From an uncultured Pelagibacteraceae bacterium (GTDB lineage Bacteria > Pseudomonadota > Alphaproteobacteria > Pelagibacterales > Pelagibacteraceae): a stretch of DNA of 64,000 nucleotides. The stretch covers positions 1 to 64,000 of the forward strand of contig CACJRL010000008.1 in the NCBI GenBank assembly GCA_902595815.1, read 5' to 3'. The translations under genes and the position numbers were made by a program. Under the pieces are notes generated by a model, which was not told the origin of the DNA, ran no database searches, and worked only from the letters and a program-made list of their open reading frames with translations. Every line of letters begins with the position of its first letter. Position 1 is the first letter of the stretch. Shown here one piece after another: positions 60,339 through 61,524 of the stretch.

Positions 60339-60442
60339 CTATATTTAGTTAAGACTTTAAAGATAGACCTATTGATTATAAATCAATTGCTAAGGTTTAA
60401 ATAAACGTTTGTTTACAACATTGATTGTAAAATCTTTTAGAC

Positions 60443-60472
60443 TTGGCAACAATCTAGCAACAATGGTAATAT
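60443..60472 (+). promoter_or_regulatory. Candidate promoter with overlapping direct repeat
   Basis: TTGGCA (60443-60448), an 18-nt spacer and TAATAT (60467-60472) lie just before the Mrr-like gene. The expected start of transcription (about 60479) is only a few bases before the ATG at 60482, so the mRNA would be nearly leaderless. GCAACAAT repeats at 60446-60453 and 60457-60464 (11-nt period) overlap the -35 and spacer and could be a repressor site. Confidence 0.4.
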
Positions 60473-60481
60473 TTTTTTGTT

Positions 60482-61492
60482 ATGATTACAGACGGTTCCT
60501 GGGAATATGTAAGAAAAAAAATTTTTAAATATCCTAAATCAGGTAAACTTGTTATTGCACCAATAACTCAGCAAGGCGGTGGATCTTTTATAATGGATTT
60601 AGATAACAATTTTAATTACGTAGGTTTAAGAACAGTTAAAAGAAATCCATATGTACACGGTACAACATACGTTGCTGATGTCTTAATTAATTCAAAAAAA
60701 GAAAATAATCAGATTGTAGCTCAATTTAAGCTATTAAGAGTTTTAAACGAAAAAGAGGTTGACCTCGAATTTTGGAAACCTTCAAAAAGATTAGAAAAAC
60801 TAAAGATACTTCCCGCTGAATTTTTAACAGAAGAGGAGTCCTATTGGGCTGGAAAAGTGAATGGTAACGAAGTTGAATTTTTTGGATGGTGGGGAGCTTT
60901 AATAGCATTCATATATTTTGCTTTTAAAAAAGGTTTGTTAAGTGTTGAACTTTCATCAAGCTGGCCAATTTTTTTGATAATTGGTCTTGGTATTTTTTTT
61001 ATTAAAAGCATGAAATTAATTAGAACAAAAAAACCAATTGAAAAAAAAATAAATCAATTAATGGCTTATAAACGTAAGATCATTAAAGATAATAAAAATC
61101 AGATTGGAAGACAATTATCAGAATTAGATGTTGCATTAGGAAAATATACTACGTGGACTAATTTATCTCCAATCGCATTTGAGGGAGCTTTAAAAAGAAA
61201 GTTAAATAATACAGGAATGAAAGTTGATACAACTAAAACGACTGGTGATGGAGGAATAGATTTGACAGGAGTTGACGAAAACAAAAAGTCAGTTTTAATT
61301 CAAGCCAAAAAATACTCAAAACCTGTTGGTGTATCCGTTGTTAGAGAAATGATTGGCGTGAGGCAAAATTATCAAAACAAACCTAGAACAATTATTTATA
61401 GCCTTGAAGGCTTTACTAAGGGAGCATATGATCTAGCTAATGAACACGATATTGAATTAAAATCAATTAGGGATGATTTAATAGGTAAATGA
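60482..61492 (+). CDS. Membrane-associated Mrr-like restriction endonuclease domain protein
   Basis: A 336-aa protein. Residues 1-130 are a soluble domain of unknown type (GSWEYVRKKIFKYP, EEESYWAGKVNGNEVEF). Two hydrophobic segments, about 135-149 and 160-177, suggest a membrane hairpin. Residues 225-336 form an Mrr_cat-like nuclease: FEGALKRKL, GDGGIDL (Asp260) and IQAKKYSK (Gln274-x-Lys276), the PD-(D/E)xK core that cuts DNA. Usually these act on methylated or foreign DNA. No methyltransferase is adjacent, so it would be a stand-alone type IV-like defence or stress nuclease. Confidence 0.8.
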   Translation: MITDGSWEYVRKKIFKYPKSGKLVIAPITQQGGGSFIMDLDNNFNYVGLRTVKRNPYVHGTTYVADVLINSKKENNQIVAQFKLLRVLNEKEVDLEFWKPSKRLEKLKILPAEFLTEEESYWAGKVNGNEVEFFGWWGALIAFIYFAFKKGLLSVELSSSWPIFLIIGLGIFFIKSMKLIRTKKPIEKKINQLMAYKRKIIKDNKNQIGRQLSELDVALGKYTTWTNLSPIAFEGALKRKLNNTGMKVDTTKTTGDGGIDLTGVDENKKSVLIQAKKYSKPVGVSVVREMIGVRQNYQNKPRTIIYSLEGFTKGAYDLANEHDIELKSIRDDLIGK

Positions 61493-61524
61493 AAAAACTT
61501 TTAGGGATTAAGGAATAAAGATAT

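Follow-up and report, generated by a model that had tools for sequence, protein, structure and literature searches.

What does a direct repeat just ahead of a solitary nuclease gene do, and how did the gene come to stand where it does? The window, the whole stretch of 64,000 nucleotides that was analysed, comes from contig C8 of a 1.16-Mb genome (G000) that is 83% complete and, to judge by its size, base composition and neighbouring genes, probably SAR11-like. A preliminary description of this DNA had singled out a membrane-tethered Mrr-like nuclease gene and had read the repeat at its promoter as a site of repression. We consider it probable that the gene is instead cargo left over from an integrative cassette of the tRNA-Thr type that has since decayed, that the repeats are integrase arm-type sites, and that the cassette was mobilised in trans. 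The features of the locus are collected in Table 1.

Table 1. Features in and around the nuclease locus (positions are those of the window)
Feature	Position	Strand	Remarks
Remnant of tRNA-Thr(TGT), nt 23-48 (anticodon arm), presumed attachment-site core	60366..60391	-	25/26 bases
Conserved left-end spacer with a further copy-like CAACA motif	60392..60445	+	alignment with nine + 20 Thr-type left ends
Promoter-like site TTGGCA-18-TAATAT, TG before second hexamer	60443..60472	+	consensus only; overlaps repeat, near start codon
GCAACAAT x2, presumed integrase arm-type pair	60446..60464	+	copies 60446-60453 and 60457-60464
Mrr-domain nuclease ORF	60482..61492	+	336 aa; N-terminal orphan domain followed by a probable membrane hairpin and Mrr_cat
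First hydrophobic segment, aa 137-155	60890..60946	+	Kyte-Doolittle 1.41, weak; helix 117-149 in low-confidence model
Second hydrophobic segment, aa 162-180	60965..61021	+	Kyte-Doolittle 1.98; followed by lysine-/arginine-rich residues
Mrr_cat domain (PF04471), with D260 and Q274-x-K276	61160..61462	+	profile match
20-nt remnant of dispersed signal-peptide leader (MKKLLGI...)	61489..61508	+	overlaps nuclease stop codon; lost second cargo gene

The open frame comprises 340 amino acids and begins YFFVM, so that position 60482 is the first start codon. Residues 227-327 of the protein match the Mrr_cat profile with 68 bits, well above the curated cut-off of 21. E234, D256, D260, Q274 and K276 are invariant in all nine aligned proteins, and D260, Q274 and K276, which we take to be the catalytic residues of the Mrr family, supply the aspartate and Q/E-x-K motif that characterise it. 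The Mrr nuclease domain of the preliminary description is thus borne out, and its homologues retain the catalytic residues. The Mrr_N domain of classical type IV enzymes gave no match up to E = 1; the layout is, as had been claimed, unlike that of normal type IV restriction. The N-terminal part is not covered by any family match in Pfam, PADLOC or NCBIfam, which agrees with its description as a domain of no recognised family and gives it no tie to a housekeeping function. Nor does any of the five neighbouring genes scanned encode a methyltransferase, as had also been observed.

Two hydrophobic stretches separate the N-terminal domain from the Mrr domain, as had been noted, although the first is weak. 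An AlphaFold2 model from the single sequence places helices at residues 117-149 and 161-223. However, the mean pLDDT of the model is only 40.5, and for this reason we regard anchoring by a membrane hairpin as probable and no firmer. The lysine and arginine residues after the second segment would place the Mrr domain in the cytoplasm and, given a hairpin, the N-terminal domain as well. The nuclease is probably held at the inner membrane. A sequence search of solved structures returned no match to the nuclease.

The region upstream of the ORF contains two 8-bp copies of GCAACAAT, 11 bp apart from start to start. This agrees with the one-turn spacing, and with the overlap with a promoter-like site, in the preliminary description. 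The promoter-like site is a weak consensus match that contains both repeat copies, and such a match is uninformative by itself because 15 sites were found in the scanned sequence compared with 17.3 expected in shuffles. Position 60443, the first of the range given in the preliminary description, is where this consensus match begins, whereas the coding start lies at 60482. The fold of positions 60339-60481 is no better than that of shuffled sequences (z -0.42) and gives no sign of a structured RNA leader. The recurrence of the repeat pair in the genus exceeds chance: with up to one mismatch it occurs at 15 places, spread over 11 of the 201 genomes of the genus, and the reversed pattern occurs at none.

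The places where the pair recurs are of two kinds. In the first, a piece of tRNA-Thr is followed by the repeats and then by a start codon. In the second, the repeats and an inverted copy are followed by the next tRNA-Thr piece. The window is of the first kind. Its tRNA-Thr remnant was identified by BLAST against the tRNA-Thr of a relative (25 of 26 bases, E 7e-9 in 2 kb) and again, with 96% identity, by a search with sequences of its own genome, where the full tRNA-Thr is located elsewhere, at C2:123846-123921.

We identified a family of cassettes with this organisation by searching 34 loci for partial copies of the ten kinds of tRNA found in them. Partial copies detected by BLAST beside full tRNAs comprise nt 23-76 of tRNA-Thr, nt 1-39 of tRNA-Leu and nt 24-77 of tRNA-Met. 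Between consecutive copies of one tRNA lie 29 cassettes, 20 of which are associated with tRNA-Thr, seven with tRNA-Leu and two with tRNA-Met. They range from 498 to 6360 bp in length with a median of 1718 bp, and all but one (28 of 29) fall within 0.5-3.2 kb. In 16 of the 20 Thr-type cassettes the first listed ORF begins 88-115 nt beyond the core, and in 12 the left repeat begins 50-60 nt beyond it; the edge of the core itself differs by up to 7 nt between copies, and the exceptions to the ORF offset are partly due to poor start choices by the ORF script. In most of the 20 aligned Thr-type left ends the repeats are followed by TGnTA. The window conforms to this geometry, its repeat beginning at +55 nt from the core and its ORF at +91 nt, although its core spans only nt 23-48 of the tRNA, while most cassettes show it from nt 23-30 to nt 76.

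Repeats with a spacing of 11 bp are concentrated at the tRNA copies. Of these, 71 lie no more than 200 nt from a tRNA copy, in a zone that makes up 12.4% of the sequence, and 35 lie elsewhere. Each of the other spacings from 8 to 20 accounts for 2-19 in that zone and 22-120 outside it (counts made without the 7-kb overlap of loci L100 and L169). Such repeats are present within 260 nt of both ends in 22 of the 29 cassettes; in the other seven, no repeat pair was detected at one end or at both. The two ends of a cassette carry a matched, cassette-specific unit. They share all eight positions in 16 of the 22, seven in one, six in three and four in two (L161 and L164, where the units of the two ends are unlike). 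The end-to-end unit score is 161, compared with a mean of 131.5 and a maximum of 151 when units are permuted within tRNA type, and none of 2000 permutations reaches it. Even with a loose profile, no convincing integrase was found among the 71 ORFs of the cassettes; the sole match to the integrase profile (11.5 bits), in a 127-aa leader-bearing ORF, we take to be due to chance.

The window fits only half of the cassette pattern, since the right end is absent and the full tRNA-Thr is distant. A search for the second tRNA-Thr copy that would mark a right end found none nearby and none elsewhere on C8. The 20-nt leader piece at the end of the nuclease gene, with no right end behind it, indicates a cassette that once had two genes and of which the second gene and the right end are missing. 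Because of these losses the cassette is probably immobile now. It is also off its usual site, as the genome's full tRNA-Thr is on another contig, and it arrived there either by secondary integration or by a later move. The gene described as standing alone does so as a relic, and was formerly the cargo of a cassette with a second gene.

The leader to which the 20-nt piece belongs is widespread. It is conserved at the nucleotide level (ATGAAAAAACTTTTAGGGATCGTGGTTCTGGG...), its conservation begins sharply at the ATG, and it opens many otherwise unrelated cargo genes. The MKKLLGI leader occurs 131 times, in 68 of the 151 genomes covered, compared with five for the reversed pattern; nine copies lie within 10 kb in one locus (L090). 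We considered whether the leader is a recombination element of its own and dropped this idea: an ORF starting with MKKLLGI is present in seven of the 29 cassettes. Of 81 copies collected, however, 26 are broken remnants, in which the 5' end is fixed and the 3' end varies. It is better seen as a signal-peptide leader shared by cargo genes.

The cargo itself is varied. Among 67 plus-strand cargo ORFs, four match Mrr_cat, ten the pilin-type N_methyl motif and three trypsin; DpnI-like, T5orf172 and HNH nucleases are represented once each among the 25 families listed of 46. PADLOC matches include MkoA, MkoC, mREase_II and mREase_IV, with one member each. PF04471 occurs in eight of the 201 genus genomes, that of the window included, and four of the seven other Mrr genes are cassette cargo (in G332, G031, G387 and G243); near the remaining three (G206, G156 and G165) no partial copy of the tested tRNAs was seen. 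Nucleases and defence-like genes are therefore frequent in the cargo, yet they are not its only content. Tandem pilin-like genes with a near-identical N-terminal methylation segment and divergent sequence behind it occur in L168 (6991-9228), L163 and L164. A 1068-aa helicase-PLD protein (L100:6758-9964) is encoded in a 6.4-kb tRNA-Thr cassette, which also contains a small Mrr protein gene and an ORF of 112 aa. In four loci (L155, L102, L168 and L103) a leader-bearing gene for a secreted protein or lipoprotein comes directly after a nuclease gene, and often overlaps it or is flush with it, the nucleases being an Mrr protein, a GIY-YIG-type T5orf172 protein, a DpnI-like protein and a 335-aa ORF read as HNH.

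The recurrence of Mrr genes as cargo and the frequency of defence-like genes there make protection from foreign DNA the likeliest role of the nuclease. That it would do so from the membrane, as the preliminary description imagined, is a fair guess by analogy. The nuclease could also be selfish or addictive cargo, either a toxin with a lost partner or a helper of cassette movement. This reading, which we find doubtful, draws on the nuclease genes of L155, L102 and L168 (the last with MNKLLGI), each of which stands directly ahead of a gene for a secreted protein or lipoprotein that opens with the MKKLLGI leader, and on the trace of such a second gene in the window. However, the Mrr, DpnI-like and Mokosh-like proteins of the cargo match anti-phage families, and in the window the nuclease ORF is still open even though the second gene has been lost.

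What could have moved cassettes that encode no integrase? Phage_integrase proteins were found in 15 of 20 genomes searched, a set to which the cassette genomes G375, G332 and G031 do not belong. Fourteen have just one, located off the island contigs, and the 13 of these that could be read are mutually alike (61-84%). As there is one per genome, away from the islands and similar among genomes, the single integrases are probably chromosomal Xer proteins. G028 has a second Phage_integrase protein. No match was found in G000 (83% complete), and hence no recombinase of its own such as a tycheposon or satellite would have.

Candidate movers were found in viral contigs. Two contain the Thr core and 23 the Leu core. 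Six contigs that have a cassette tRNA core and such repeats also carry an integrase, which is the first gene behind the core in four of them. L174 combines a tRNA-Thr core, repeats on either side of it and a Phage_integrase protein (68 bits) at +98. Among the contigs with the Leu core, eight of the 23 have repeats nearby and 15 have none. L190, L191, L193 and L196 have a repeat about 101-107 nt before the tRNA-Leu core and the integrase as the first gene behind it. L175 has the core at both ends and an integrase and a DUF5906 primase within 7.8 kb, organised as a satellite would be. Six integrase genes are of the L175 kind (L175, L190, L191, L193, L194 and L196), and these six satellite-like contigs share a tRNA-Leu core, an integrase and small regulator-like ORFs. 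In L191 (6408) and L193 (1972) the opening codons of the integrase gene contain the left 11-bp-spaced repeat.

Cassette cargo may thus occupy the position that the integrase has in these elements. For the Thr type this exchange is read from one contig, L174, which is the strongest example. For the Leu type it is an inexact reading because the integrase ORF of the viral elements starts at +101 to +102 and the cassette cargo at +172 to +225. Direct likeness between cassette and viral ends is uneven. The arm region of L170, a cassette with a trypsin-like gene at the tRNA-Leu of G000 itself, agrees with that of L190 in 28 of 31 bases, and its local score of 25 exceeds all 300 shuffles. In local alignments of cassette ends with integrase-bearing ends, three or fewer of 300 shuffles are as good in only six of 42 pairs; seven further pairs reach this level, all with L183, in which no integrase was found. 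Likeness between cassette and integrase-bearing right ends is thus mostly no better than in shuffles. No 11-bp-spaced repeat was found near the integrase of Pelagiphage HTVC019P. Pairs of GCAACAAT occur in nine viral contigs, which is about chance by estimate, and a search of the viral contigs for an attachment site bearing the left end of the window copy found none. In phage records the 20 matches listed of 56 were to tRNA only.

Direct repeats spaced by 11 bp are typical of OmpR/PhoB-type regulators, and in many left ends the repeats overlap a promoter-like TGnTA just ahead of the first ORF. The repeat might on these grounds be the operator of such a regulator, or of another regulator of accessory genes, with no recombinase involved and the tRNA fragments merely marking old islands. 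We judge this improbable, for the same units are also found where no gene starts, in right ends that lie some 93-106 nt ahead of the following tRNA-Leu copy; they vary between cassettes yet match within one; and they flank the core in viral contigs that carry an integrase. The repressor operator envisaged in the preliminary description was set aside because 11-bp-spaced repeats are present both at cassette right ends and in integrase-bearing viral contigs, although a protein bound at the repeat could also repress the overlapping promoter. The 11-bp arm-type direct repeats of Tn916 are likewise found at both ends of the element. As the cassettes bear such repeats and the integrase-bearing viral contigs share both cores and repeats with them, the repeat in the window is most likely an integrase arm-type site.

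The locus is variable among close relatives. In seven sister genomes (L032-L038) the downstream dehydrogenase is 95-99% identical, and positions 60339-61524 of the window, between the phosphatase-like and dehydrogenase genes, correspond to a spot of differing content. In L032 and L034 the whole 1.2 kb is absent and just 28 bp are found. The other five carry different genes (serine-protease-like, two related secreted, thioredoxin-like and sulfotransferase-like ORFs, named by eye only). In G199 the same decayed core (tRNA-Thr nt 26-44) precedes a gene at this spot. The first half of this gene is 62% identical over 182 aa to the cargo of a tRNA-Thr cassette and the second half 44% identical over 199 aa to the cargo of the tRNA-Leu cassette of G000.

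Full-length relatives of the nuclease were not found in viral contigs, phages, plasmids, two scans of species genomes or 297 genomes sampled from the order. No more than one of these 297 has the full-length gene, and one other matches in the Mrr part only; in the class sample, 20 others among 385 genomes match, every one in the Mrr part only. As this rarity and the absence of the gene from the same site in sister genomes mark it as accessory rather than core, we think it highly improbable that it encodes a housekeeping enzyme of DNA repair or uptake at the membrane, even though membrane-linked PD-(D/E)XK proteins with non-restriction or unknown roles, RmuC and COG4741, are described in the part of the source consulted (PMC1189080).

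The combination of membrane segments and an Mrr domain is not unique, since at least six loci of the class (L011, L013, L015, L017, L021 and L024) encode hydrophobic segments before Mrr. L011 (238 aa) has two such segments followed by an Mrr part with 37% identity to that of the window protein. However, proteins of this type have no counterpart of the N-terminal 130 residues. A search of other genomes for the same N-TM-Mrr architecture, as the preliminary description proposed, thus found membrane segments and Mrr together but no full-length relative with this N-terminus, and the domain is an orphan.

The following mechanism would account for these observations. Cassettes would consist of one to a few genes between tRNA-fragment copies, with a repeat pair or triplet near each end and no integrase. 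They are probably moved in trans by a tyrosine integrase for which the repeats serve as arm-type binding sites and the anticodon arm as the place of recombination. The window would retain the left end of such a cassette (tRNA remnant, repeat pair and promoter region) and the nuclease, most likely a guard of the type IV-like or SNIPE-like kind that cuts foreign DNA. More tentatively, integrase-less mini-cassettes may exchange accessory and defence genes by parasitising integrases that belong to tRNA-targeting satellites. Each cassette would have its own 11-bp 'arm code', identical at the two ends, that decides whose integrase can move it. As the cargo comes first behind the left end, in the position of the helper's integrase, integrase binding could also switch the cargo, and the window nuclease would be a stranded cassette.

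Streamlined marine bacteria have few classical defence systems and vary strongly at tRNA-linked islands. If the proposal is correct, an arm-coded cassette of 1-2 kb would explain how single defence or surface genes are transferred between strains without a recombinase of their own, and the sequence would predict which satellite integrase mobilises which cassette. The control region of the nuclease would be re-read as a recombinase site in place of a repressor operator.

With E. coli Mrr the window protein shares an Mrr_cat domain with the conserved D and QxK. However, in place of Mrr_N it has an N-terminal orphan domain and what is probably a membrane hairpin; the classical Mrr_N-Mrr_cat form is found in the L155 cassette of another genome. 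The orphan membrane-Mrr layout joins a small set of membrane-bound nucleases. SNIPE, a membrane-bound anti-phage nuclease able to cut phage DNA as it enters the cell, combines DUF4041 with a GIY-YIG nuclease in the portion of the report considered (PMC13190303), and a family search of the window ORF matched neither. COG4741, proposed in 2005 as a 'membrane-associated guardian against foreign DNA', likewise combines an N-terminal membrane part with a C-terminal PD-(D/E)XK domain. However, that domain is YraN-like rather than Mrr-like, and according to the relevant part of that article there is one helix and no large N-terminal domain (PMC1189080).

Additive flexible genomic islands with tRNA-fragment repeats are known in other streamlined bacteria and resemble the cassettes in being small, inserted at tRNA genes and marked by the tRNA fragments left behind; matched 11-bp repeats at two ends and integrase-first relatives are not among the features described in the sections consulted (PMC7771536, PMC10872708). 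Tycheposons are likewise tRNA-linked cargo elements of marine bacteria. However, as described in the passages drawn on here, they are 4-200 kb in size and have a tyrosine recombinase (PMC10872708), whereas the cassettes are mostly 0.5-3.2 kb with no convincing recombinase. Our search of the literature, mainly open-access, found no description of matched 11-bp repeats in tRNA-flanked cassettes. Cassettes flanked by tRNA fragments are thus already known, and what may be new here is the matched arm code.
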